Shown in pieces: positions 3 through 28,194 of a stretch of DNA of 64,000 nt. Origin of the DNA: Rhodococcus sp. W8901 (GTDB lineage: Bacteria; Actinomycetota; Actinomycetes; Mycobacteriales; Mycobacteriaceae); NCBI RefSeq assembly GCF_013348805.1, contig NZ_CP054690.1, positions 3,596,001 through 3,660,000 on the forward strand, read 5' to 3'. The position numbers and the translations under genes are program-made. Below the pieces are notes generated by a model. It was not told the origin of the DNA. It made no database searches and worked only from the letters and a program-made list of their open reading frames with translations. The first letter of the stretch is position 1, and each line of letters begins with the position of its first letter.

Positions 3-1289
3 GAACAAGCGACCGTGCTCGAGGCCCGACTGATGCCCGCTCTCGCGACGGTCGGCGAACTCGACGCCCGTGCCGGCGCCGCCCTGGACACCGCGACCGC
101 CCAGCTCGGCGACCCCGGTGCGGCCCGAGCGGGGAACCTCGGAACCGATGGGCTCCCCGAGCCGATACCCGGTGCCACGGCCGCCGACAACAAGAAGTAC
201 TGGGACTCGCTCACCGAGGACCAGCGACGCCGGATCATCGACGAGCATCCGGACTGGGTCGGCAACCGCGACGGTATCCCCTCCTCCGTGCGTCACGAGG
301 CGAACGTGAGCCGGTTCGACGACGAACGCTCCCGCCTCGAAGCCGAACGCGACCGCCTGCAGACGAACCTCGACGACAACTTCTTCGGCGGCACGTTCAC
401 CAACGACGACGCGGCGCTCTGGTACACCGAGCAGAAACTGCGCGACCTCGACGAAATCGAGGGCATCGTGGCGGACAACCCCGACGGCCGCCTGATGCTG
501 CTCGATCTGCAGTCCGGCGAACGCGGCATGGCTGCGTTCGCCGTCGGCGACCCCGACACCGCCGACCACATCTCCGTCACCACCCCCGGACTGAACACCA
601 ACATCGACGGCTCCTTCAACGGCATGGTCGACGAGGCAAAAAACCTGCGGAGCGAGGCGGAAGAGCAACTCGAAGCCGTCGGTCGGGACGAGACTGTAGC
701 GAGCATCGCGTGGTTGGGATACGAACCACCGCAGGCGGACACCGGCGCGTCGAATGCGTTCATGGACGGCGTACGCGGCTACGGCGATGTCGTCCAGACT
801 GATCGTGCGAACGCGGGCGCCGCGAAGCTCGCCGGGTTCTACGACGGCCTCGATGTCGCGTCGACGCATCCGGACCCGCACATCACCGCCCTCGGGCATT
901 CCTACGGATCCTTGACTACCGGTCTGGCCCTGCAGGACCCCGGACCCGGCCAACCCATCGACGACGCCGTGTTCTACGGATCACCTGGCATCAACGCCGG
1001 CGACGAATCCGACCTCGGCCTCGCCGAAGGACACGGCTACGTGATGGAGGCGGACGGCGACGTCCTGATCCCCGAAGCTGGCAAGATTCACGTGTTCGGA
1101 CCCGACCCCAGCACCTCCGATTTCGAACAACTCTCCGTCAACGCAGGCACCAGCCCCGACGGCGTAATGCGAGATGGCGTCGGGTCGCACAGTGAATACC
1201 CAACACTCGGCAACAACGGGGAGCTTCGAATGTCGGGATACAACATGGCCTCGATCGTGGCCGGACTACCCGAACAGGTCGTGCGCTGA
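3..1289 (+). CDS. DUF1023 alpha/beta-hydrolase protein (5' partial)
   Basis: The frame is open to the window edge (E-Q-A-T precede a GTG at 15), so the true start is probably upstream. The C-terminal half reads as a DUF1023 alpha/beta hydrolase: the nucleophile elbow A-L-G-H-S-Y-G-S has its Ser codon at 900-902, in a region that continues with Y-G-S-P-G-I and ends in a conserved H-S-E-Y. The N-terminal part is helical and charged. Proteins of this architecture in Nocardia and Rhodococcus commonly sit beside WXG100 or YbaB-like partners and are thought to be exported effectors or envelope enzymes; that role is inferred here. The stop overlaps the next start by one base. Confidence 0.8.
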   Translation, partial: EQATVLEARLMPALATVGELDARAGAALDTATAQLGDPGAARAGNLGTDGLPEPIPGATAADNKKYWDSLTEDQRRRIIDEHPDWVGNRDGIPSSVRHEANVSRFDDERSRLEAERDRLQTNLDDNFFGGTFTNDDAALWYTEQKLRDLDEIEGIVADNPDGRLMLLDLQSGERGMAAFAVGDPDTADHISVTTPGLNTNIDGSFNGMVDEAKNLRSEAEEQLEAVGRDETVASIAWLGYEPPQADTGASNAFMDGVRGYGDVVQTDRANAGAAKLAGFYDGLDVASTHPDPHITALGHSYGSLTTGLALQDPGPGQPIDDAVFYGSPGINAGDESDLGLAEGHGYVMEADGDVLIPEAGKIHVFGPDPSTSDFEQLSVNAGTSPDGVMRDGVGSHSEYPTLGNNGELRMSGYNMASIVAGLPEQVVR

Positions 1290-1852
1290 TGAACCGACGA
1301 ACCCTGCCGCTGCTGGCGGCGCTGGCAACAACCGTGACAATCCTGACCACCGGATGCGGAGACCTCGAGACCATGGGCAACCCCTACAACCACACCGACG
1401 AGGAGATCGCCGCCGCGGCCGCCCTGCTGCCCACTCTGCCCTCACTCGAGGACACCGAGAAGCAGATCACCGAGGCCGTGGTGCAGATCGCCGACGCCGC
1501 CACAGCCATCGCACCGGAACTGCAGTGGGAGTGGCGACGCGAGCGGAGCCAGTCCAGCTGCGGCGGCGCGTTCGGCAAGACCGACGGGCTCGAGATCCAA
1601 CTGCAGATGTACGTCTCTCTCACCCCGATCTCCGACGCAGACTGGCCCCGTATCCTCCAGGCCGCCCACGACATCGCCGCACCCCTCGGCATCACCCAGC
1701 TGACCGTGCGCGTCGACAAGCCGGGCAAGCACGACGTGGTGCTCACCAGCGATGACGGCAGCCGGATCTTCCTCGGCTCGGACGTGCGCGCCGTCATCAG
1801 CGCCCAAACCGGCTGCCGTCTCCCCACCGAGCAGACCGACCCGACCCCGTAA
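1289..1852 (+). CDS. LppA-like lipoprotein
   Basis: This 187-residue protein starts with M-N-R-R, a hydrophobic stretch and a lipobox T-T-G-C near residue 23, so it should be lipidated and anchored outside the membrane. The mature part contains W-E-W-R-R and S-S-C-G-G motifs and a late Cys (T-G-C-R) that could form a disulfide, as in the mycobacterial LppA/LppB type lipoproteins. It overlaps the DUF1023 gene by one base and precedes a YbaB-like gene, a combination repeatedly linked in Nocardiaceae genomes. Molecular function is not known. Confidence 0.75.
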   Translation: MNRRTLPLLAALATTVTILTTGCGDLETMGNPYNHTDEEIAAAAALLPTLPSLEDTEKQITEAVVQIADAATAIAPELQWEWRRERSQSSCGGAFGKTDGLEIQLQMYVSLTPISDADWPRILQAAHDIAAPLGITQLTVRVDKPGKHDVVLTSDDGSRIFLGSDVRAVISAQTGCRLPTEQTDPTP

Positions 1853-13439: not shown

Positions 13440-14459
13440 TCAGGTGCGGTCTCGACACCACCGATCTGTCTGGTATCCGTGTCTTCCGCACACCAATTCC
13501 GGTGCAGTTGACCACTGTCGGCCTTCGAGCCAACGCAGCACTGCCGCCGGCATCGCGCCGTCTGCGCTGACGCCGACGCCAGCAACCAGAGGCCCGTCCC
13601 CACATCGCTCGCACGTGACCGCGACGACCTGTTCACGAGGCTGGCACCGGACACAGTGTCGGCGCTCGCTGATCTCACCGGGCGGGTCAAGGTGCAGCCA
13701 GACCGTGTCGAGGTCGTCGCGATGTGCAGTCACATCTTGTCGCGTCGATGGCCGGTAGCCGCACGTGGGGCATGTCAATCTGTCGGCCACGGGACTACCT
13801 GCAGCAGCGGCAACCGTCGAGGCCAGCGGCGGGGGCTTGGTCGAAGACTCAGGCGTCGGCGGGCCCACAACGACAGGGAACTGCTCGGCAACTCTCCGCG
13901 GCAAGTGCCGGTACAGGGTTGAGCGCGTCAGACCAGTCTTGGCAACGATCTCGGCGGCGGTGGCCCCCGAGTCCCTCAACTGGATCGCGTGGGCGAGTTG
14001 AGATTCGGTAACTACCGACGGCCGACCAGTGCGCCGCCCCTTCGCAGTGGCGACATCGCGAGCGTGCGCAGCGCGCTCTAGTGTGTACGTGCGTTCCATC
14101 TGCGCAAACAGTGCCAGCAACACCACTGCCAGCTGACCGATCGGATCATCTGGATTAGTCGAGTCGATTCGGATCGGGTCCGCGAGGTTGCGAACCCCGA
14201 TCTCACGCTCACGTAGATCGTGAATGAGGTTCAAGGTGTCGCGCACGTTCCGCCCGAGCCGATCGAGAGTATGCGTAACGATGACGTCGCCGGCACGAGC
14301 GTACTTGAGCAGCGCCGACAGTCCAGGACGGTCGGTGGTGGCTCCGGATTTTCGATCCACGTAGATGCGGTCCGTCGCTATGCCCGCGGCGGTCAGGGCA
14401 ACAATCTGCCGTTCAAGGTCCTGCTTGGTCGTAGACACTCGCGCATACCCTAGATCCAC
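13440..14459 (-). CDS. Serine recombinase (resolvase/invertase family)
   Basis: The N-terminal catalytic domain shows L-G-Y-A-R-V-S-T with the nucleophile at Ser9, Y-V-D-R-K-S-G-A, and the H-T-L-D-R-L-G-R-N motif. An HTH follows (G-A-T-A-A-E-I-V-A-K-T-G-L-T-R-S-T-L-Y). Unusually, the C-terminus adds Cys-rich segments (C-P-T-C-G-Y, C-V-R-C-Q, C-E-R-C-G) that look like zinc fingers. The 339-residue start at GTG 14459 fits a leaderless promoter: TACTCT on the minus strand (14472-14467) ends 7 nt before it; an ATG at 14510 would add 17 residues. It could resolve element multimers or be a remnant of a transposon. Confidence 0.8.
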   Translation of the reverse strand: MDLGYARVSTTKQDLERQIVALTAAGIATDRIYVDRKSGATTDRPGLSALLKYARAGDVIVTHTLDRLGRNVRDTLNLIHDLREREIGVRNLADPIRIDSTNPDDPIGQLAVVLLALFAQMERTYTLERAAHARDVATAKGRRTGRPSVVTESQLAHAIQLRDSGATAAEIVAKTGLTRSTLYRHLPRRVAEQFPVVVGPPTPESSTKPPPLASTVAAAAGSPVADRLTCPTCGYRPSTRQDVTAHRDDLDTVWLHLDPPGEISERRHCVRCQPREQVVAVTCERCGDGPLVAGVGVSADGAMPAAVLRWLEGRQWSTAPELVCGRHGYQTDRWCRDRT

Positions 14460-14640
14460 ACCCGCGAGAGTACCGAAAGTTGTTCCTGCCGTAGTCTTTT
14501 GAAGAATCATTTTGGAACTAACCTTTGAGACGGTTTCTCCTGCCGCGATGCGTTCCGGCACACGCAAGCACTTGGCCGTCCCACAACCAAGGTTACGGAA
14601 CGTTGGGACTGCCACTATCTCGATGGCTCGATGACCTGCA

Positions 14641-14661
14641 CCACGGGGACTTACCCCGTGG
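14641..14661 (-). terminator. Hairpin spanning the helicase stop codon
   Basis: CCACGGGG and CCCCGTGG flank a 5-nt loop that contains the TAA stop of the UvrD-like gene. It marks the probable end of the defence operon. Confidence 0.6.
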
Positions 14662-16384
14662 TCTCACCCAGAATGACGTGTGCATTCACGCCGTCCTTGC
14701 TCAAGACCTTTGAGATCGGGTCATAGACGTCTCGATGAGCCGCGATCACGAGCAATTCTTGTGCTCGGGAGGCGCCCACATACAGGACGCGGCGAGCTTC
14801 ACCGGGCTCGTCGGCACACCACTGTTGCACCCCATCTTCCTCACGAGACCTGGAGGGTTTGGGAACAACCAACGCCACGGCGGGCGCTTGAAGACCCTTA
14901 TAGCCGTGGACGGTCGAGTATGCGAACGCCTCTGCGGCCGCGTCCGGTTCGATAGGCCACACATCGCCGTCGGGTCTGCGGACTCCCTCCAGCGACCATC
15001 CAAGGACGTGTTGGCTCTCCTCCTGCGAGAGCAGATACGTTTTGAACTGCGACGGGCTACAACTGAACGGAGGCACAGATCCCACAGCCAACCGCAGGCA
15101 TCGCTCACGGAACTGCGAGGCTGTCAGTCGGCGATCATCGAGATACGCGTCGAAGGTGAGCGCAGCAAGCTCGTCCGGGCAGAGTTCCTGCAGATATCGC
15201 TCCAGCAACCGCAATGCTCGCGCGCGATCCGGACCGAAGGACTCCTTGTCCTGTATCCGGTGGATCAGCATGGCCAAGCGGACGAGTTTGTTGCTCTTCG
15301 GGCTAGGCGATTTCGCGGAGCCTGCTAGCTTTCGTGCCTTGTCAGCGTGGTGCGCCAGGACCACCATCTCTCTGCGGTCGACGCTGAGGCGGTCGAGGAG
15401 CTGTCCGATCGCCTGTCGCGCATCATGCTCGGCGGTGTACGACAGCAGGTACACAGGATGATCAACGTCTTTGTCTTTTCCGACCGGATCGTCGGACGCA
15501 CCGCCATAGCGCAGGCTGTCGACCGCTCGGCAGATGGCCGGCGAACTACGGAAATTTCCGTTCAATCGTTCGCCGTGGGGCACCTGATCCAGGAGAGTGT
15601 CCAGTTGCGTCTCGCCTGTGTCTTGTCGGAATCCATAGATCGCTTGGTCTGGATCACCGACCATGATCAATCGCACGCCGGAATCGAGAAGTAGCTTCAG
15701 CACGGCAACGTCTTCACGGCTACAGTCCTGGACTTCGTCGACGATGACTTCGGAGAAACGCGCACTCAACACCTCTGCGAGACGCTCGCGATAGCTTCCC
15801 CGGAGGTACTCCGCCAGACACACCCGCGAGGCCTCCGCGTCGAGGATGCCCTTGCGCACCAGGGAAAGCCAGAGTGCTGAGGCCTTGGATTCCAACGCGT
15901 CGGTCTTCCAGGGCTCTTGGCTTGCCAGCCATCCCCTGCTTTCCCATGGCACGCGCTTGATCCGGAATTTCGCGGTACCCGCGGCGTCGAAGGAGAACCA
16001 GTCGAGTTCTGCCCTAAGCCCGTGTGCTTGCACTGTTGTTCCTGGCACCGTCGCCCAAGTGTCACGGAAGGATGGCGAGATACCTTTGCGTGAGCGAAAT
16101 ACCGGACCTACGACGAATCGATTGATGAAGCTGTCGATGGTGCCCACGAAGTTGGGAACCTGCAGAAGCGCCGGATCAGCGCTGCATCGTGTGCGCGCCT
16201 CATCGATCACGGCGTTGGTGAACGAGATGAGACCGACTCCGCGTCGAGGATCGCTCGCCGGCCGGTCGATAAATCGCTGGACGATCGCCTGGGTCTTTCC
16301 CGCCCCTGGGCATGCCTCTACATAGATCGATGACTTCGTCCTGATGAGGGCACGCTGGGCGCGAGTGAAGTTTAGGGGCGGCAT
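14651..16384 (-). CDS. UvrD-like helicase, GajB-like
   Basis: This 577-residue superfamily 1 helicase has Walker A A-C-P-G-A-G-K-T (residues 24-31), motif Ia (S-F-T-N-A-V), motif II V-I-V-D-E-V-Q-D, motif III G-D-P-D-Q-A-I-Y-G-F, motif IV region N-G-N-F-R-S-S and motif V/VI (V-H-G-Y-K-G-L, Y-V-G-A-S-R-A). In Gabija defence, GajB is a UvrD-like helicase that works with the GajA nuclease against phage DNA. The start lies 2 nt after the GajA-like stop, so translation is coupled. It is slightly longer than the Bacillus GajB I recall (about 500 residues). Confidence 0.8.
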   Translation of the reverse strand: MPPLNFTRAQRALIRTKSSIYVEACPGAGKTQAIVQRFIDRPASDPRRGVGLISFTNAVIDEARTRCSADPALLQVPNFVGTIDSFINRFVVGPVFRSRKGISPSFRDTWATVPGTTVQAHGLRAELDWFSFDAAGTAKFRIKRVPWESRGWLASQEPWKTDALESKASALWLSLVRKGILDAEASRVCLAEYLRGSYRERLAEVLSARFSEVIVDEVQDCSREDVAVLKLLLDSGVRLIMVGDPDQAIYGFRQDTGETQLDTLLDQVPHGERLNGNFRSSPAICRAVDSLRYGGASDDPVGKDKDVDHPVYLLSYTAEHDARQAIGQLLDRLSVDRREMVVLAHHADKARKLAGSAKSPSPKSNKLVRLAMLIHRIQDKESFGPDRARALRLLERYLQELCPDELAALTFDAYLDDRRLTASQFRERCLRLAVGSVPPFSCSPSQFKTYLLSQEESQHVLGWSLEGVRRPDGDVWPIEPDAAAEAFAYSTVHGYKGLQAPAVALVVPKPSRSREEDGVQQWCADEPGEARRVLYVGASRAQELLVIAAHRDVYDPISKVLSKDGVNAHVILGETTG

Positions 16385-16386
16385 GC

Positions 16387-18360
16387 TTACGGAACCGGCT
16401 TCCGGACCGATACGGCGATAGCTTCAACTAGGTAAGCCGGGCATTCGAACGATGCCCCATCGACGATCCTCCGTGCGACGTCGTGTGCGAATTGGCCCTT
16501 GCTGATCAGCCCCTTGGAGTTACGCAACCGCACGTAGAATTCCCGGGCTGGATCAGAACTCTGGGTGATTTCCCCCCACTGTCGCTGCGATTTTGGGTGT
16601 TGGTCGAGGTAGGCCTGACCCAAGACGACGTGATTCATGGTGCCGGAAACCAGCAGGTCAGCTTCGAGGGTGTGTGGAGCTTCCGCTATATGGAGTAGGT
16701 CGTCGCCGACACCGAGGGACTCCCGCAGGGCCCGTAGGTCTGCCGCACGGTTGTACAGGACCTTGTCATTGTCCTCGTTGTCATCGTCTTCGTCGGACGC
16801 CAACTCCGGCTCTGCGGCGAGTGAGTCGTTGATGTTTCCGGGACTCGGCTGTGGCGCCTCCTCGCCGGCAGCATCTCTCTTTTTGCTCTTGCTGTTCTTG
16901 CTCCGCTTCTCTTCGGGGGTGAGTGCTGGATCGGCATCGGTGACCACGACCAGGCGGTCAGCCAGCCGACTACCGTTCACCTCCTGCATCAGCAGCTTGA
17001 TGTAGGGCTTGAAGTCGACGGAGCCGACGTTGACAACCGACACACCACGAAAAGCTCGGCGGAGCTGCTGCTCGGATTGAGTGGATCCGTTGAAGACGCA
17101 GTGTCGCGCCAGCACCGGGACGAGAACGGCCTCGGCGATTCCTTCTACCAGTACCACCGACCGGGCGAACAGCAGCTCCGAGCGGGTCACATCGAGATAC
17201 TGATCGATCTTCCGACGTTCGTTCGGCTCAAGTGAAATGTCCGCCAAGGGGATCACTGCGGTGCCGGTATCTCCGCTCGATCCATGCCTAACGACGACCA
17301 CATTCTCGGTCTCCAGGGCACTCGCCAGGTTCGGCGAGTGCGTCGTGGCAATGACCTGGATCCGTCCGGCCGGCCCCTCCCGGTCATCGCGCACTGACGT
17401 GGCGGCTTGGTCAACCAGGAACTCCATGAGCACGGCCTGCAACTGCGGATGCAGATGTGCTTCCGGTTCCTCGACCAGGAACAGCGTCAGCTCCGAATCT
17501 CGGGCATTTTGCAGTTCCAGGATCACTGTGGCCATGAAGAGCAAATTGGCGTATCCGAGGCCGGACATGGTCAGATCTGCCGGCCTGAGCTCGTGCTCAG
17601 CCATCTTGAGTCGCAAGCTGCGCGCAAGACGCTCAAGACGCGGTCGTTCAAATCCGAGGTGAACCTTCTGCGCGCGCACCGGATCAGTCAGCTTGGACAA
17701 ATGCCCCTGAATGCCGCTATTCACACCCGTGACAGCCGGGTGCCCCTCGAGATCATCCAGCGCTTCCTGCGCCTGCGTGACGAACTCGTTCCGATCGCTC
17801 TCCTCGACAAGATGTTGCATTATCAATGCCAGCCGGTTCCCCGAAGCTGAATCGAGCTCGCGTTGTGCATCCCGGAGGGGGGCCAGATAGACGTGATTTA
17901 TCTGCTCACGCTTCTCCGGTTCAGGATCTGGCGAGCATGCGCGCCCAACCAGATGCTCGACACGCCCCCGGCGGACACCGTCCGGCGACGGCCGAAAACG
18001 CGTCACATGGACAGCGTCATCGTTCGCAAGGTCCAGCGCACCGATGAGATGCGCGCGTTGGAACGCCGTCAACCCCGAGAACTGGGACGTCAGGAGCACC
18101 TGCTCTGTGTCGCCGTCCCTCACATCGTCGATCTCGAAGTATCGAGTCCGCCGCCCGCTCAGTGGAGCGGTCGCCAATCGCAACGCTTCGATGATGTTGG
18201 ACTTGCCTGCATTGTTCTCGCCGACTAGCAAGGTCACCGTCGGGCCCAGGGGAATCGTGACCTTTCCGCACGATCGGAACCCCTCTATCGTGAAGCTCCG
18301 AAGGTACATCCCTTCTACCGGTGCCCCTTCTGTGATTGTCGAGGCCGTCGCCGTTGTCAC
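16387..18360 (-). CDS. OLD-family ATPase/TOPRIM endonuclease, GajA-like
   Basis: The 657-residue product has an N-terminal ABC ATPase with Walker A G-E-N-N-A-G-K-S (residues 47-54), a S-G-L-G-Y-A-N-L signature, Walker B F-L-V-E-E-P-E-A-H-L-H-P and T-T-H-S-P-N-L. A TOPRIM domain follows (V-V-L-V-E-G-I-A-E-A near 403, V-V-T-D-A-D-P near 472). This is the OLD/GajA architecture. A long Lys-then-Asp/Glu-rich insert interrupts the TOPRIM region. GTG 18360 was chosen because GTGA overlaps the upstream stop and AGGGG lies 5 nt before it; ATG 18309 begins the conserved domain. With the adjacent UvrD-like helicase it fits Gabija, where GajA nicks DNA when nucleotide levels fall. Confidence 0.82.
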   Translation of the reverse strand: MTTATASTITEGAPVEGMYLRSFTIEGFRSCGKVTIPLGPTVTLLVGENNAGKSNIIEALRLATAPLSGRRTRYFEIDDVRDGDTEQVLLTSQFSGLTAFQRAHLIGALDLANDDAVHVTRFRPSPDGVRRGRVEHLVGRACSPDPEPEKREQINHVYLAPLRDAQRELDSASGNRLALIMQHLVEESDRNEFVTQAQEALDDLEGHPAVTGVNSGIQGHLSKLTDPVRAQKVHLGFERPRLERLARSLRLKMAEHELRPADLTMSGLGYANLLFMATVILELQNARDSELTLFLVEEPEAHLHPQLQAVLMEFLVDQAATSVRDDREGPAGRIQVIATTHSPNLASALETENVVVVRHGSSGDTGTAVIPLADISLEPNERRKIDQYLDVTRSELLFARSVVLVEGIAEAVLVPVLARHCVFNGSTQSEQQLRRAFRGVSVVNVGSVDFKPYIKLLMQEVNGSRLADRLVVVTDADPALTPEEKRSKNSKSKKRDAAGEEAPQPSPGNINDSLAAEPELASDEDDDNEDNDKVLYNRAADLRALRESLGVGDDLLHIAEAPHTLEADLLVSGTMNHVVLGQAYLDQHPKSQRQWGEITQSSDPAREFYVRLRNSKGLISKGQFAHDVARRIVDGASFECPAYLVEAIAVSVRKPVP

Positions 18361-21300
18361 AGGTCCCCTTGTCTCAGCACCGACGCGATTGCCAACGAGT
18401 CGACGATCGTCATCGTCTCGACCGCAACGGTGGTCACCCGCTTGATCAGATCGACGATGTAGCGCGGGTCGTCGCGCTCGTCGCACCAGTCGTTGGGGTC
18501 GTTGACGATCCCGGACGCCTTGTCGGTCTTGACCTGGTAGCGATCGATGATCCACGCCAACGCTGACCGGGAGCCGAGCATGTACCGTTCAGCAGCCTCG
18601 GGGATGCCCGCGATGGTGACCTTCGGGTTGAAGACGATGCTGGTTCGGTCGTCGACGTTCTTGCCGGTCTCGGGGTCCCTCTTCTTGCCCCACTTCATCT
18701 TCGACACCCGCCATGTCTCACGATCCTCCGCTGAGACGTCCTTCTTCAGCTGCACATCGAGGTCGTACGGCTCCACGGTCCCGTAGTTCACGTGCAGGTC
18801 CGCCAGCTTCCTGCCGGCAGCGACCAACTGCTCGAACCGGTCCCGAAACTCGGGCGTCGGGATGTGCGGGAGCATCTTCTTCAGATCCGCGGCGTAGGTT
18901 TCGCGGTAGGCGGGGTCGTGGAGCAGACCGTAGACGTAGTAGAAGATGTCGTCCTTCGTGACCTGGTCGCCGACCGCGCCGCGGTAGAGAGCGAGGATGC
19001 CGTCGGTGATGTTGTCGACCCGACGGTAGCCGTGCTCGTCGACGCCAGCAGTGTCTGCCGCCGCGAAGTCGAGTTCACCATCAGCCGATTCAGCCTTGCT
19101 GTAGGTCCAGCGAGGGAAGAACTGTCCGGTATCGAGCAGATGCAGGTTCGGCAGAAGGTCCGTCATGAACGGTGTGAACTCGAAGTGCGACGCCGGTGCC
19201 GTCAGCACGATCCCGATGTTCTTGTGGTGTGGTGTGGGGAACATCGACGGAGTGAGGCCAACGATGTGGTTCAACGTGCGGTCGAAGTAGACGTTCTGTT
19301 TGCAGAAGGGGCGGTACGAGCCCACGACCAGTCCGTCTGGAGCGAAGCTGGCCGGACGATTGGAGATCAGCCGATTCTTGAGGCTCAGGGTCCAGCTGAT
19401 CTTATGGCCGTCGTTGACCGTATCTCCGCAGTCCTTGAAGAAGCGATCACGGCTCTCCTTCTTTCTGCCAAGCCCCTTCTCGCTCAGCCAAGTTGAGTAG
19501 AGACCCTCGACGTGCGAATAGAACTCGAGAGTGGCCCGACAGTTCTGCTCAACCTTCGGCGCGGAGTAGTTGTAGACCCAGACGTCGCGTCCCGTCTCCA
19601 AGCCTCTTGAATACGAGTCGAACACCGTGCAACTCGTCACGACGTGCTTCTCTCCGATCGCAGGCCACCCCTCGAACGCGTCGTTGCGCTGATTGATCCA
19701 GTCTCCGTGGGTATTCGGGGTGATGGCCTGCCAGTCGACGGTCGCGAGGTTGCCGTCGTCGACAATACGGAGTTTGTCCTCGCGGCTGAGGTAGTCGCCG
19801 ATGTCGCGGTAGAAGATCTCACAGAGGCCAACGTAGGCGGGGTTCTTGACACCAATAAGGATCGCGACTGTATTGCGACTGCCGGAGCCAAATACCTTGC
19901 CGCCCTCCTTGCGGGAAAGTTCGCCAGCGGTGCGCTGGTTGCCACGGAGGTTGTAGACGTAGATACGGGAGTACTCGTCGGTGAGGGACATCCGTAGCCC
20001 AGCCGCGGTGTTGCCGTCGATCCAACCGCCATTGGAGACGAACGCGACGATCCCGGCGTCGCCGATACGGTCGGTCGCCCATCTGAACGCACGAATGTAC
20101 GAGTCGAACAACGAGTTGCTGCCGCCGCGTCCACGATCTGCCAGATATGTCTCTCGTATCCGGCCGTCCAATGTGGGGTACGCGACGTTCTCATTGTTGT
20201 CGTTGGCAGAGTCTTGGCCTACCGAGTACGGCGGGTTGCCGACCACCACGTTGATCGGGATTGCGTTCTGACGGATGATGCGGTCGTTGTTCTGCGGGAA
20301 CATCACCGCGTCGAGGCTGTCGCCGTCCTCGGTGATCTGGAAGGTGTCCGCAAGCACGATGCCCTCGAACGGAACATACTCGGAGGCAGCCTCTTTGCCG
20401 ATGAGGGCGTGGTAGGTGGACTCGATGTTCACCGCCGCGATGTAGTAGGCAAGCAGCATGATCTCGTTGGCGTGCAACTCGCACGCGTACTTGCGGGCCA
20501 GATCGGCGGGGTCGATGAGTCCGGACTGCAGTAGCCGGGTCATGAAGGTGCCGGTGCCGGTGAACGGATCCAGGATATGAACATCTTCGTCGGTCAGGCC
20601 GCGGCCGAACGCATCCCGGGACGCGTGGTCGGCGGCGCGGAGGATGAAGTCGACGACTTCGACAGGGGTGTAGACGATGCCGAGGGCTTCGGACTGCTTG
20701 CGGAAGCCGAGACGGAAGAACTTCTCGTAGAGTTCGGCGATCACCTTCTGCTTGCCGTCCGCGGTGGTCACCTCGGCGGCGCGGGTGCGGACGGAGGCGT
20801 AGAAGCCGTCGAGTTTCGCAGTCTCGGCCTCCAATCCGGAGTCGCCGAGGGTGGCGACCATCGCCTCCATCACCTTCGAGACAGGGTTGTGGGAGGCGAA
20901 ATCGTGTTCGGCGAACAGGGCGTCGAACACCGGCTTGGTGATCAGATGCTGCGAGAGCATCGAAATCGCGTCATCGCGGCTGATGGAGTCGTTGAGATTG
21001 TCCTTCAGCCCCTGATGGAACCTCTCGAACGCCGCCGCCACCTCCGGGGACGCCCCGGCCAGCAAGTGCCGGATGCGGGTGATCTGGGCGGCGGCGATGT
21101 CGGCGACGTCGGCGGCCCAGTCTTCCCAGTAGGCACGGGTACCGACCTTGTCGACGATCTTCGCGACGATCGCTTCCTGCCACTCCGACAGCGAGAACAA
21201 CGCCATCTGCGTCGCCATCTGCCCACCATCTGCGCCACCTTCGGCCACAGAACTGGGCGCATCGGTGGTGCCGGTGGCATCGGTGGACGAACCGGTGCCG

Positions 21301-23351
21301 GCGACGGATTCGTTGTCGCTGCTCACGGGGCCGATGTGGTCGCCCATCAACATGGTCGAGCCCTTGCCGGTCTTCTTCGCCTCGGTGGTGGCGTTGAGGG
21401 CGATGGAGTTGACCATCGCGTTGAACCGGTCGTCGTGCGCGCGGAGCGCGTTGAGGACCTGCCACACGACCTTGAAGCGGCGGTTGTCCGACAACGCCTG
21501 CGACGGGGACACGCCGACAGGGACGGCGACGGGCAGGATGATGTAGCCGTAGTCCTTGCCGTCGGCCTTCCTCATCACCCGACCCACGGACTGCACCACG
21601 TCGACGACGGAGTTGCGGGGGTTGAGGAACATCACCGCATCCAGCGCCGGCACGTCCACTCCCTCAGACAGGCAGCGGGCGTTGGTCAGGATCCGGCACT
21701 CCCCCTCCGGCACCGGGGCCTTCAACCACGAGAGTTCGGCGTTGCGCTGCAGGGCGTTGAACGTGCCGTCCACGTGATGCACCGAGCACGCCAGGTCCCG
21801 GTTCGTCGACGACACCGCATGTCCGTCGTTCTCGTTCTCCTCGAGCAGGTCCCGATACGCATCCACCACGGACGGGAACACCTCGGCGACCTGCTTGGAG
21901 GCGGCGATGTCCTTGGCGAACACCACCGCACGTCGCATCGGTGGCTCCCCCGGCGCGAACCCGGTGCCGTCCGGGGAGCGGCCGGCACGTTTGGCGAGAC
22001 CGTTCCAGCAGCCGACGATCTTCGAGGCGTCGTCGAGCTTGAGTTCGGAGAACTCACCGGCCAGCTGGGCCTGCAGCGGGGAGGCGACCAGGTTCTCGTC
22101 GACGGTCAGCACGATCACCTTGTAGTCGGTGAGCAGGCCGCGTTCGACCGCGTCCCCGAACGACAGGCGGTGGAACTCGGGGCCGTAGACGGTCTCGTCG
22201 TCCATCGAGGCGAGTTCGGCCGAATGCTCGGCGGCCTGGTCCTTGACCTTGTCGTCGAACAGCCGCGGGGTTGCCGTCATGTACAGCCGGCGTGACGCTT
22301 TGAGGAAGTCGCCGTCGTGCACCTTGACGAAGTTCGACTCGTCCTCCCCTGCCAACGTGACGCCGGTGGTGCGGTGCGCCTCGTCGCAGATCACCAGATC
22401 GAACCCGTCCACCCCCTGCTGCTGCGCCTTCGCGACGACGGGCAGGGACTGATAAGTGGTGAACACCACCGTCAGGCCCTTGGCCCGTTTGCGGTGCCCC
22501 ATCTCGGCGGCGAGGGTGGCCGGGTCGGTGGTGACCGGGATCGCGACATCGACCGCGCCGATGTCCTCGGCGGCGCGGGAGACCTTCGTGTCCGAGCACA
22601 CCGCGAACGCCCGCAGGTCCAGCTGGGTCTGCGCGGTCCACTCCCGCAAGGTCTGCGAGAGCAGGGAGATCGACGGCACCGCGAACAGGATCCGGGCCGA
22701 CCCGCTCTGCTCGAGCGCGGTGCGTTCGGCGATCTTGAGCGCGGTGAACGTCTTGCCGGTGCCGCACGCCATGATCAGCTTGCCGCGGTCGTTGCCAGCC
22801 TCGAACCCGGCAAACACGGCATCGATGGCTGCCTGCTGGTGCGGGCGCGGATCGTGGCGCTTGGCCTCGGTGAGTTCGACGTGCAGTTCACCGGCCGGCC
22901 AGGCGATGTCCCAGTCGATCGGGGACTCTGCGATCTCCGCCAACCCGATCCGCTGCACCGGGGTGTGCTGATCCTCGAGCGCCGCCTCAGCGTTCTTCCC
23001 CCACCGGTCGGTGGTCGAGATGATCACCCGGTTCGTGAACGGCTTCTTCCCCGACGCCGTGAAAAATGAATCGATATCGCCCTTGGCGAGCGTGTGGGTG
23101 GGTTCGTAGAACTTGCACTGGACCGCCGTGAACGCGCCGGTGTCGCGCTCCCGGGCGACCAGGTCGATCCCGGTATCGGGCTTCCCGTCCCGGCCGGGCC
23201 AATCCGTCCACCGCCACACCTGGTCGTACTGCTGCGACAACAACGGATCGAGCTCGAAGTAGCGGACCATCAACTGCTCGAACTTCGTGCCCCGTTCCGA
23301 GTTCGACGGCGCCTGACGGAACGCCTCGATGACCTCGTGAACAGAACCCAT
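18357..23351 (-). CDS. Type ISP-like single-chain restriction-modification enzyme
   Basis: The 1664-residue protein combines an Mrr-like nuclease (D63 with Q78-C-K80 of a PD-QxK site), a superfamily 2 helicase (Walker A A-C-G-T-G-K-T at 195-201, D-E-A-H near 320, later Q-S-V-G-R-V-M-R-K), an N6-adenine methyltransferase (L-D-P-F-T-G-T-G-T near 925, N-P-P-Y near 1038) and a C-terminal specificity region. This order and size match type ISP enzymes such as LlaBIII, which cut after translocation and collision. ATG 23351 starts at the conserved M-G-S-V-H-E-V-I; the open frame reaches 23546 through the hairpin and is unlikely to be used. All modules appear intact. The stop overlaps the GajA-like start by 4 nt. 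Confidence 0.88.
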   Translation of the reverse strand: MGSVHEVIEAFRQAPSNSERGTKFEQLMVRYFELDPLLSQQYDQVWRWTDWPGRDGKPDTGIDLVARERDTGAFTAVQCKFYEPTHTLAKGDIDSFFTASGKKPFTNRVIISTTDRWGKNAEAALEDQHTPVQRIGLAEIAESPIDWDIAWPAGELHVELTEAKRHDPRPHQQAAIDAVFAGFEAGNDRGKLIMACGTGKTFTALKIAERTALEQSGSARILFAVPSISLLSQTLREWTAQTQLDLRAFAVCSDTKVSRAAEDIGAVDVAIPVTTDPATLAAEMGHRKRAKGLTVVFTTYQSLPVVAKAQQQGVDGFDLVICDEAHRTTGVTLAGEDESNFVKVHDGDFLKASRRLYMTATPRLFDDKVKDQAAEHSAELASMDDETVYGPEFHRLSFGDAVERGLLTDYKVIVLTVDENLVASPLQAQLAGEFSELKLDDASKIVGCWNGLAKRAGRSPDGTGFAPGEPPMRRAVVFAKDIAASKQVAEVFPSVVDAYRDLLEENENDGHAVSSTNRDLACSVHHVDGTFNALQRNAELSWLKAPVPEGECRILTNARCLSEGVDVPALDAVMFLNPRNSVVDVVQSVGRVMRKADGKDYGYIILPVAVPVGVSPSQALSDNRRFKVVWQVLNALRAHDDRFNAMVNSIALNATTEAKKTGKGSTMLMGDHIGPVSSDNESVAGTGSSTDATGTTDAPSSVAEGGADGGQMATQMALFSLSEWQEAIVAKIVDKVGTRAYWEDWAADVADIAAAQITRIRHLLAGASPEVAAAFERFHQGLKDNLNDSISRDDAISMLSQHLITKPVFDALFAEHDFASHNPVSKVMEAMVATLGDSGLEAETAKLDGFYASVRTRAAEVTTADGKQKVIAELYEKFFRLGFRKQSEALGIVYTPVEVVDFILRAADHASRDAFGRGLTDEDVHILDPFTGTGTFMTRLLQSGLIDPADLARKYACELHANEIMLLAYYIAAVNIESTYHALIGKEAASEYVPFEGIVLADTFQITEDGDSLDAVMFPQNNDRIIRQNAIPINVVVGNPPYSVGQDSANDNNENVAYPTLDGRIRETYLADRGRGGSNSLFDSYIRAFRWATDRIGDAGIVAFVSNGGWIDGNTAAGLRMSLTDEYSRIYVYNLRGNQRTAGELSRKEGGKVFGSGSRNTVAILIGVKNPAYVGLCEIFYRDIGDYLSREDKLRIVDDGNLATVDWQAITPNTHGDWINQRNDAFEGWPAIGEKHVVTSCTVFDSYSRGLETGRDVWVYNYSAPKVEQNCRATLEFYSHVEGLYSTWLSEKGLGRKKESRDRFFKDCGDTVNDGHKISWTLSLKNRLISNRPASFAPDGLVVGSYRPFCKQNVYFDRTLNHIVGLTPSMFPTPHHKNIGIVLTAPASHFEFTPFMTDLLPNLHLLDTGQFFPRWTYSKAESADGELDFAAADTAGVDEHGYRRVDNITDGILALYRGAVGDQVTKDDIFYYVYGLLHDPAYRETYAADLKKMLPHIPTPEFRDRFEQLVAAGRKLADLHVNYGTVEPYDLDVQLKKDVSAEDRETWRVSKMKWGKKRDPETGKNVDDRTSIVFNPKVTIAGIPEAAERYMLGSRSALAWIIDRYQVKTDKASGIVNDPNDWCDERDDPRYIVDLIKRVTTVAVETMTIVDSLAIASVLRQGDL

Positions 23352-23485
23352 GACCAACCCGCCCCTTCGCAGACCCGACAACACTCGGAATGACATCTTG
23401 CCCGGTCTCATCCCGGTCTTGATGTGCAGGTACGACCCGGCCGTGTCGGATGGCCATCCCCCGCATTCTGTTCTCTTCAAACCCG

Positions 23486-23518
23486 CGTCGAGGGCGGGCC
23501 ATAGGCCCGCCCTCGACG
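23486..23518 (-). terminator. 15-bp GC-rich hairpin
   Basis: Arms 23486-23500 and 23504-23518 are perfect with an ATA loop. The hairpin lies downstream of the DUF2637 gene and upstream of the restriction gene, so it probably ends the transfer-gene transcript. The promoter of the defence operon should lie in 23352-23485. Confidence 0.65.
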
Positions 23519-23575: not shown

Positions 23576-24292
23576 TCACAGCGACACAGACTGACAGTGC
23601 TTCCGCTTCCACCGGTAGACGGTGGTTCTGTGGACGCCAACCTGGTCGGCGACATCCTGAGCTGGCATTCCTCCAACCAGAAGTTCGATCGCGAGAGCAC
23701 GGGCAGCGTCGTCACTACGAGCGTCAGCTGCAACGTCCTCGTCGACAGGCGCAACCGTGTCGCGGCGCGAAGCCGCGGGACTGGCCACGGTCGGCTCGGT
23801 CAGAGCAAGCGCCGTGCCGTGGTACTCGTCACCCCCACCGACCAGATCCTCGTCTCCGCCGCTATCGCAGATTGGATCGCTTGTCCGGACCGAGGTGTCG
23901 CACGCTGCAGTCTGAGTAGCAGACGACGCTCGTCGCAGACGCACCGCAAGATGTGTGACTGCGACGAGCGCTACAGGTGGAACTGCGGCGACTGTCGCAC
24001 GAAGCCACACGGGTAGCGCCTCATCGGGAAGCGCGGCATGCAACGCGTTCCCCGCAACCGAGACCAATGCACCGACGATTAACAGTCCCCAGGCGTAACG
24101 CCCAGCGCCCGCGACTACAGCGACAGTCGCAACAACGACTACGCCATCGACTATCGCGGGCCACAACGCAGGAACCGCGACACCGGAGCGAGCGGCGAGA
24201 TCGCTCAAGGCCGTGAATGACAGCACCGCCGCAGCAACACCGATGCCGGTGGTTCCCACCACAGCCACCAAGGCTGGCCACCGCGCCGTCAT
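23576..24292 (-). CDS. DUF2637-type membrane protein with C-terminal HTH
   Basis: This 238-residue protein has about four N-terminal membrane helices (including W-P-A-I-V-D-G-V-V-V-V and A-W-G-L-L-I-V-G-A-L-V), typical of the DUF2637 family encoded on actinobacterial plasmids and integrative elements. After an acidic linker it ends in an HTH (P-A-Q-D-V-A-D-Q-V-G-V-H-R-T-T-V-Y-R-W-K). DUF2637 proteins are associated with conjugal spread, but their biochemistry is unknown. The ATG overlaps the upstream stop by 4 nt (ATGA). Confidence 0.75.
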   Translation of the reverse strand: MTARWPALVAVVGTTGIGVAAAVLSFTALSDLAARSGVAVPALWPAIVDGVVVVATVAVVAGAGRYAWGLLIVGALVSVAGNALHAALPDEALPVWLRATVAAVPPVALVAVTHLAVRLRRASSATQTAACDTSVRTSDPICDSGGDEDLVGGGDEYHGTALALTEPTVASPAASRRDTVAPVDEDVAADARSDDAARALAIELLVGGMPAQDVADQVGVHRTTVYRWKRKHCQSVSL

Positions 24293-26900: not shown

Positions 26901-28076
26901 ATGGCCGCCGGTAGACCGCCGCTGCGGATCGGGCAGCACGGGAAGATCACCCGGCGCGACCTCGGCGGCGGAGTCTGGCTGGCGCACTGCCGGTTCCGCG
27001 ACACAGACGGCGTCGTCCGTCGCGTCGAGCGGCGCACGCCCGCCGGCCGCCGGGACCAGCACGGGAAGGTCGCCGAGCGGGAGCTGCTAGACCACCTCGA
27101 CGCACGCCGAGCGCCGAGCGAGGAGGACGTCACCGACGCGACGACCATCACCGCACTGGTCCGGACGTACCTCGGCCGTCTCGAAGAGGAGGGGCGGTCG
27201 GCCGCGACGATGGACACCTATAGGTTCGCCGCCGGGAAACTCGAGAGCAAGATCGGCGGCGTGCGGGTGGGTGAGGCCACGGCCGGACGAATCGACACGG
27301 CCATACGTGCGATGGCCAAAGCGCACGGGCCGACGATGGCGCGGCAGGCGAAGACGATCCTTCGCGGCGCCCTCGGCATCGCGGTGATCGCCGGGGCAGT
27401 GGACTCGAACCCCGTGCGCGATGTCTCCCCCATCAAGTCCAAGACGCCTCCGAAGGGGGCACGGCCGCTCACGGCCGACGAGCTGCGCGCGCTGCTCGTC
27501 GCGCTCGGCGAGTCGGAGTACTGCGCGGCGAACGATCTGGTCGACCCGATCACGCTGTTGATCGCGACGGGCCTACGGCGGTCGGAGCTGCTCGCGCTGC
27601 GGTGGTCCGACGTCGATGACGAGGCCGGCACCGTGACCGTGTCAGGAAAGGTCGTCCGGGCAAAGGGCGCCGGGTTGCAGCGCGTCCAGGCGGCGAAGAC
27701 AGCAGCGGGACTGCGGACCATCGCCTTGCCGCTGTTCGCGCTCGAGGCGTTGAAGCGTCGGGCCGACGAGCCGCAGCTCGGGCAGCTCGGCGTGATCTTC
27801 CCGTCAACGTCCGGAACCCTGCGCGACCCGAACAACTTCGGGAAGCAGTGGCGGAAGGTCCGCGACGACCTCGGGGTGCCGGAGGTGACGACGCACAGTT
27901 TCCGCAAGGCGCTCGCCACGCTCATTGACGAAGGCGGCCTGTCGGCCCGCGTGGGCGCCGATCACCTCGGGCATCGACATGTCAGCATGACGATGGACCG
28001 GTACATGAGTCGTGGCCGGACGCACACCGCGGTGGCGGATCTGCTGGACAGTGTCGTCGCCGTAAACGACGAATAA
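26901..28076 (+). CDS. int: Tyrosine integrase
   Basis: The 391-residue enzyme has an N-terminal arm-binding part, a core-binding helical domain (A-L-V-R-T-Y-L-G-R-L-E-E-E-G-R-S) and the catalytic domain. Catalytic residues are R226 (G-L-R-R-S-E-L), H332 and R335 (H-S-F-R), H358 (L-G-H-R-H) and the nucleophile Y368 (M-D-R-Y). It catalyses recombination between the element and the tRNA-Met 3' end 44 bp downstream. It is cotranscribed with the XRE gene. All catalytic residues are present, so mobility is plausible. Confidence 0.93.
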   Translation: MAAGRPPLRIGQHGKITRRDLGGGVWLAHCRFRDTDGVVRRVERRTPAGRRDQHGKVAERELLDHLDARRAPSEEDVTDATTITALVRTYLGRLEEEGRSAATMDTYRFAAGKLESKIGGVRVGEATAGRIDTAIRAMAKAHGPTMARQAKTILRGALGIAVIAGAVDSNPVRDVSPIKSKTPPKGARPLTADELRALLVALGESEYCAANDLVDPITLLIATGLRRSELLALRWSDVDDEAGTVTVSGKVVRAKGAGLQRVQAAKTAAGLRTIALPLFALEALKRRADEPQLGQLGVIFPSTSGTLRDPNNFGKQWRKVRDDLGVPEVTTHSFRKALATLIDEGGLSARVGADHLGHRHVSMTMDRYMSRGRTHTAVADLLDSVVAVNDE

Positions 28077-28116: not shown

Positions 28117-28120
28117 TACG

Positions 28121-28165
28121 TGGGGCGGGCGGGGCTCGAACCCGCGACCAATGGATTATGAGTCC
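28121..28165. other. Probable attachment-site core (3' half of tRNA-Met)
   Basis: The tRNA 3' half faces the integrase, so the crossover most likely lies here. No second copy of this stretch was found by eye in 1-28120; the partner site should be left of the window. Confidence 0.4.
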
Positions 28166-28194
28166 ACGGCTCTAACCGACTGAGCTACCGCCCC
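28121..28194 (-). tRNA. tRNA-Met (CAT)
   Basis: The 74-nt cloverleaf reads: acceptor GGGGCGG/CCGCCCC, D-arm GCTC/GAGC, anticodon loop CTCATAA, T-arm GCGGG/CCCGC and discriminator A. The body resembles actinobacterial elongator tRNA-Met rather than initiator tRNA; a lysidine-type tRNA-Ile2 is less likely. CCA is not encoded. Confidence 0.9.

Follow-up and report, generated by a model that had tools for sequence, protein, structure and literature searches.

Gene content of the locus and its mobile setting

The window, by which we mean the whole 64,000-nucleotide stretch of DNA analysed here, is part of the single-contig 5.71 Mb genome of Rhodococcus sp. W8901 (G000:C1:3596001-3660000). Three genes follow one another closely on its minus strand: a Type ISP restriction-modification (RM) gene (18357..23351), gajA (16387..18360) and gajB (14651..16384). 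The ISP frame runs at full length from an ATG at 23351 to 18357 and encodes 1664 aa, with no internal stop codon. As determined with Pfam, its product carries an Mrr-type nuclease, an SF2 helicase, a coupler, an N6-adenine methyltransferase and a Type ISP specificity domain, in this order (Type_ISP_C, 2.7e-94; ISP_coupler, 1.1e-49; Mrr_cat_2, 1.3e-48; ResIII, 2e-26). The N6_Mtase match was marginal, with 20.3 bits against a Pfam cut-off of 20.4, and reached 24.2 bits in a second search. The best solved relatives in the PDB were LlaBIII (4xqk, 1160.6 bits) and LlaGI (5ffj, 1151.5 bits). The catalytic motifs expected of a Type ISP enzyme (GIDLVA...QxK, AxGTGKT, DEAH, FxGTGTF and NPPY) were all located by pattern search, and the single-chain domain order and the intact motifs together place the protein, as far as its sequence goes, among the Type ISP enzymes. 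Elsewhere in the same genome, strong N6-methylase matches were found at G000:C1:1571126-1572094 and 173610-174599 (377 and 204 bits, respectively). Since the host has at least two such genes outside the window, the ISP enzyme is probably not its sole RM enzyme.

The product of gajA matched the PADLOC GajA profile PDLC00073 with 743.6 bits and the Pfam families AAA_15 and OLD-like_TOPRIM, and pattern search recovered the motifs GENNAGKS, LVEGIAE and VTDAD, as for an OLD-family ABC ATPase fused to a TOPRIM nuclease. The 577-aa GajB is a UvrD-like helicase (PADLOC PDLC00136, 558.2 bits; Pfam UvrD-helicase, 2.7e-21) in which the helicase motifs were found. Its ATG at 16384 begins 2 nt after the gajA stop at 16387. 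The pair thus shows both marks of a Gabija system, an ABC ATPase and a TOPRIM domain in one GajA chain and a UvrD-like GajB directly downstream. The identities, order, strand and tight spacing of the three genes, which a sequence-only reading of this DNA had proposed, were all borne out by Pfam, PADLOC, the PDB and the open reading frames.

At the right end of the element, a tyrosine integrase gene (26901..28076, plus strand; Phage_integrase, 6.9e-20) lies beside a tRNA-Met gene (28120-28194), whose 3' part holds the 39-bp right attachment site (28119..28157). An identical 39-bp repeat occurs at genome positions 3591890-3591928, 4.1 kb to the left of the window, making a core-to-core length of 32,268 bp. 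The left flank (74% identity, 470 nt) and the right flank (90%, 1016 nt) meet at a single copy of the repeat in the sister genome G398 (locus L174). The integrase beside tRNA-Met, the repeats and the empty site in the sister genome together identify the three genes as cargo of a 32.3 kb integrative element at the tRNA-Met gene. Downstream of gajB follows a serine recombinase of the resolvase family (13440..14465, minus strand; Resolvase, 4.7e-35), and a DUF2637 protein is encoded upstream of the unit (23576..24292, minus strand; 1.3e-05). The element also carries an LppA-type lipoprotein gene (window 1289-1852) beside an alpha/beta hydrolase gene and, near its left end, a short helical protein that looked WXG100-like by eye (L206:9292-9597). 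In another sister genome, G404, part of the tRNA-Met repeat occurs twice (C1:603849-603888 and 613538), approximately 9.7 kb apart, which suggests another element at the same site.

The junction and the start of gajA

The stop codon TGA of the ISP gene sits within GTGA, and from the GTG at 18360, with AAGGGG upstream, a gajA frame of 657 aa can be read that overlaps the ISP gene by 4 nt. The overlap noted in the sequence-only reading is therefore present between the frames. Whether it is used depends on the gajA start, for which an ATG at 18309, giving 640 aa and lying 47 nt behind the ISP stop, is a rival. The codon matching residue 18 of the gajA frame was ATG in all 20 close GajA relatives examined, and the PADLOC GajA profile likewise begins at residue 18. 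Because of this conservation and of the beginning of the profile, ATG 18309 is favoured and may be the true start. The GTG is favoured, in turn, by the better spacing of AAGGGG and by an upstream extension in the nearest GajA relative (67% identity), on a Prescottella equi plasmid, whose gajA could start at an in-frame ATG located 63 nt further upstream and preceded by the ribosome-site-like AGGGGGAAAG. Whichever start applies, the gap between the ISP gene and gajA leaves little room for a terminator.

Judged from this tight spacing, a single transcript covering ISP, gajA and gajB is most likely. Of the coupled three-gene operon proposed earlier, joint transcription is thus likely, whereas translational coupling hangs on the uncertain gajA start. 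A promoter scan gave no site on the strand of the unit, a result that says little for an actinobacterium. Two hairpins had been thought to bracket the unit, a long and perfect one that precedes the ISP gene (23486..23518, minus strand; fold z -5.85) and one spanning the gajB stop codon (14641..14661, minus strand; z -3.54). Both fold stably, none of 200 shuffles being equally stable in either case. However, the terminator scan classed neither as terminator-like, and perfect stems of at least 12 bp were found at four further places in the window. The two hairpins were therefore rejected as clear terminators bracketing the unit.

The DNA around the junction was compared with relatives of both halves. 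ISP-homologous DNA ends at about 18396 and conserved GajA begins with the Met at 18309, which leaves a join region of about 87 nt (18310..18396, minus strand) that contains the GTGA overlap. In ISP relatives the conserved part runs to ...VDSL, residue 1656 of the ISP protein of the window (P0001), or close to it, and the tails differ; ends were readable in 23 of 24 ISP loci, the window included. In blastn, the nearest ISP relatives cease to resemble the window there, after 25 nt. GC3 was 0.87 in the ISP gene versus 0.71 in gajA and 0.69 in gajB, and relatives were split alike, with 0.80-0.89 in four ISP genes and 0.62-0.73 in five gaj genes. The diverging ISP tails and the split in codon composition suggest two cassettes of different origin that were recently joined, and on these sequence features the ISP-gajAB arrangement reads as a recent join and not as a conserved operon.

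Restriction-modification genes beside gajAB in other genomes

An ISP gene adjoining GajA was found in none of 80 genome-contig loci, 12 of which have less than 5 kb upstream and are too short there for a whole ISP gene, and in none of 34 viral-contig loci. Partial helicase-like matches lay kilobases away in four of the 80. Among 397 genomes of the order, GajA (E <=1e-20) was present in 21 and ISP (E <=1e-100) in 32. Five had both (G000, G252, G299, G321 and G383), and the two were adjacent only in G000, the genome of the window; in the other four they were separated by 1.4 Mb or lay on different contigs. When 394 genomes of the class, a sample overlapping that of the order, were queried with the two halves joined, both parts matched in G000 only. 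The joined ISP-gaj query was covered to 80% by none of 421 matching plasmid records, and three phage records gave distant matches. The genomes, viral contigs and plasmids searched thus held no homologous ISP-gajAB operon of the kind that the sequence-only reading had proposed to look for. The ISP-Gabija junction is singular in the collections searched: it was unique to this strain in each of them, the finding that the sequence-only reading had named as speaking against it, and a conserved ISP-gajAB operon was rejected since adjacency outside G000 was absent throughout.

Within the genus, ISP was present in three of 14 genomes, that of the window counted, and the other two carry other frames behind it. 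The position behind the gene varies likewise across the ISP subfamily. It holds a 207-aa frame in L187, a 215-aa gene 9 nt behind in L188, a weak HipA-like gene (below the Pfam cut-off) in L190, an ImmA/IrrE gene in L207 and a 329-aa gene with a 4-nt overlap in L211. The closely spaced genes at L211:10980-11969, L188:11355-12002 and L190:5623-6576 all differ, as if the 3' slot were a cargo site.

Type I hsd genes, which encode the other translocating RM enzymes considered here, were found co-directional with and adjacent to gajAB in six of 138 Gabija loci, in five lineages and four gene orders; all six (L035, L044, L096, L102, L105 and L281) are metagenome-assembled or viral-collection contigs, with no isolate among them. 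Co-directional adjacency of a translocating RM system and gajAB thus recurs in separate lineages. The 138 loci are those left of 154 of 197 after removal of copies identical over 300 nt, and near-duplicates may remain among them. They were called by tblastn, with RM queries taken partly from loci that were then counted. This search flagged 14 loci and superseded an earlier methylase motif screen that had flagged eight of 84. Four flagged loci were left out: L063, L077 and L081, with partial ISP-like helicase matches, and L276, with a 25% HsdR-like match in a frame without a PADLOC family at 1e-10. Four further loci carry a type I-like methylase that is not adjacent to gajAB but no more than 10 kb from it, on the opposite strand in L037, L042 and L080 and about 7 kb upstream in L076.

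The order is hsdM-hsdS-hsdR-gajA-gajB in L035 (a Nocardioides metagenome-assembled genome, MAG); measured from the end of hsdR, gajA has upstream candidate starts at 7 and 37 nt and its conserved ATG at about 80 nt. In L281:2227-13012 (an IMG/VR contig), hsdM-hsdS-hsdR, gajA-gajB after 16 nt and a PD-(D/E)XK nuclease gene form one run, and in L105 (IMG/VR) hsdR-hsdS-hsdM precede gajA-gajB with a 158 nt gap. L044:4778-15424 (a Desulfovibrionaceae MAG) has gajA-gajB first, then a 338 nt gap and hsdM-hsdS-Abi_C-hsdR; an abortive-infection domain gene (Abi_C) stands there between hsdS and hsdR. In L102 (a gammaproteobacterial MAG) the pair is embedded, as hsdM-hsdS-gajA-gajB-hsdR. L096 (a Candidatus Azophilus MAG) shows an hsdS-like end truncated at the border of the contig, followed by gajA-gajB and an hsdR frame; its hsdS has no Pfam family and was identified by similarity to that of L102, and its hsdR frame has no HSDR_N match. 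The GajA proteins of L096 and L102 are 88% identical, so that one and the same lineage has gajAB between hsdS and hsdR.

In best-segment identity to the GajA of the window, L035 reached 57%, L044 37%, L096 and L102 31% and L105 28%, and the GajA of L281 was 25% identical to that of L102. L104, with a GajA 79% identical to that of L102, had no hsd match in flanks of 10 kb on the upstream and about 4 kb on the downstream side. A joined gajA-gajB-hsdR query was covered to 80% by none of 1482 plasmid records, which thus yielded no example of the embedded form. Defence genes cluster anyway, which tempers the recurrence in six of 138 loci. A narrow literature search found no text naming Gabija inside hsd operons, and we claim no priority. 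Two other neighbourhoods were also recorded: on a Rhodococcus plasmid of a close clade, an MmeI-like methylase and PLD-helicase pair diverges from the adjoining Gabija (L138:5776-11810), and in Parafrankia a 1700-aa TIR and NB-ARC protein is encoded about 3 kb upstream of gajA (L032:2048-7150).

Possible function and comparison with known systems

Type ISP enzymes methylate adenine in their site on one strand of host DNA. They are described as translocating along DNA and cutting randomly where they collide (PMC4666363). In the reading that we favour and consider moderately probable, two known systems stand end to end on one likely transcript, each keeps its own activities, and the pairing is two-layered. 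The ISP enzyme would methylate its own site on host DNA; on unmodified incoming DNA it would translocate and make random breaks where enzymes collide, and Gabija would attack linear DNA whose ends had been closed to the host RecBCD. Restriction would create ends, and Gabija would cover phages that shield ends or use anti-restriction proteins. We infer the activity of both systems in this host, as well as any cooperation between them.

For Pseudomonas Gabija, a preprint describes phage end-binding proteins that exclude RecBCD and thereby license attack on linear DNA (PMC12407980). The genome of the window has a RecC-family gene, as this RecBCD-linked model requires. In a transduction test in the same preprint, injected ends alone left Gabija untriggered (PMC12407980), and the same may therefore hold for breaks left by the ISP enzyme. 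Furthermore, PARIS, Gabija and Zorya II are stated to be activated on sensing Ocr (PMC12255303). In the mechanism offered by the sequence-only reading, methylation could label self DNA and GajA could detect the products of restriction; the literature suggests instead that Gabija is triggered by RecBCD blockade or by anti-restriction proteins. Since Gabija is tied to RecBCD blockade, and reportedly to Ocr, a backup or guard role beside a restriction enzyme is a plausible proposal. Against cooperation stands the join itself, since a single occurrence gives no indication that it was selected for.

The arrangement could also have arisen from chance neighbours in a defence island, brought together in the cargo slot of an element and working independently, with the tight spacing as a recombination accident. 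The junction occurs in no relative searched, the slot behind the ISP subfamily holds different genes in relatives, the two halves differ in codon composition, and gajA may start beyond the ISP gene, with no overlap. Independent action also accounts for the window as simply as the layered model does. However, co-directional type I RM genes recur beside gajAB in five lineages, and at two loci with 88% identical GajA proteins (L102 and L096) gajAB stands between hsdS and hsdR. We regard chance neighbourhood as possible, though rather unlikely.

The recurrence bears on a broader proposal, that Gabija has been repeatedly recruited into operons of translocating RM systems, type I as well as Type ISP, to form true composite systems. 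The type I hsd genes beside gajAB in five lineages lend some support to a joint use of Gabija and a translocating restriction enzyme, whereas the ISP junction stands singular in the collections searched. As a general account we find repeated recruitment doubtful. In such composites the second layer would fire on shielded DNA ends or on a disabled restriction enzyme. If the proposal is true, ISP-gajAB is the most compact RM-gajAB cassette, with methylation, restriction and backup in three genes.

We know of no interaction of GajAB with a Type ISP enzyme. That Gabija acts as a guard, monitoring the restriction enzyme and firing once it is blocked by an anti-restriction protein of a phage, in the manner described for PrrC and PARIS, seems improbable to us. 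The stated activation by Ocr (PMC12255303), the sensing of RM inhibition by PrrC embedded in a type IC RM locus (PMC12707154), the description of OLD-ABC modules in BREX loci as backup effectors (PMC12839542) and the insertion of gajAB between hsdS and hsdR, seen in L102 and also in L096 with its hsdS cut by the contig end, speak for it, but the Pseudomonas work accounts for Gabija by RecBCD exclusion with no need of a restriction enzyme (PMC12407980).

Taken together, the parts are known, the junction is singular in the collections searched, the setting is mobile and the wider RM-Gabija arrangement recurs modestly. According to a 2025 preprint, it was not known how Gabija discriminates foreign DNA from self (PMC12407980). 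The three-gene unit makes the bearing of a probably co-transcribed restriction enzyme on this discrimination directly testable, and the type I RM-gajAB loci are further natural test cases.

Compared with LlaBIII and LlaGI, the ISP protein has an identical one-chain domain order, 4xqk aligning in two stretches (P0001 residues 21-669 and 721-1657); the ISP gene of the window differs in having gajAB behind it. GajA and GajB match the PADLOC Gabija profiles across nearly their whole length. In contrast, a profile of the GajA branch of the window matched solved GajA chains weakly (best E 7.3e-07, first 73 positions), GajA has an insert judged by eye to be of low complexity, and the gene pair sits behind an RM gene.

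Among composite defence loci, the DarTG2/RptR island has a second defence system between hsdS and hsdR, as gajAB is placed in L102 (PMC12255303), although it combines a toxin-antitoxin system with type I RM and a dedicated repressor, where the window has Gabija and ISP. PrrC of the EcoprrI locus and PARIS resemble the window as accessory defences that answer restriction inhibition (PMC12707154). Their effectors are different, PrrC cutting tRNA, and for the Gabija of the window such a link is hypothetical. The OLD-ABC/TOPRIM modules of BREX likewise place OLD-type nucleases within the operon of another defence system (PMC12839542), the host system there being BREX in contrast to the Type ISP or type I RM genes described here.
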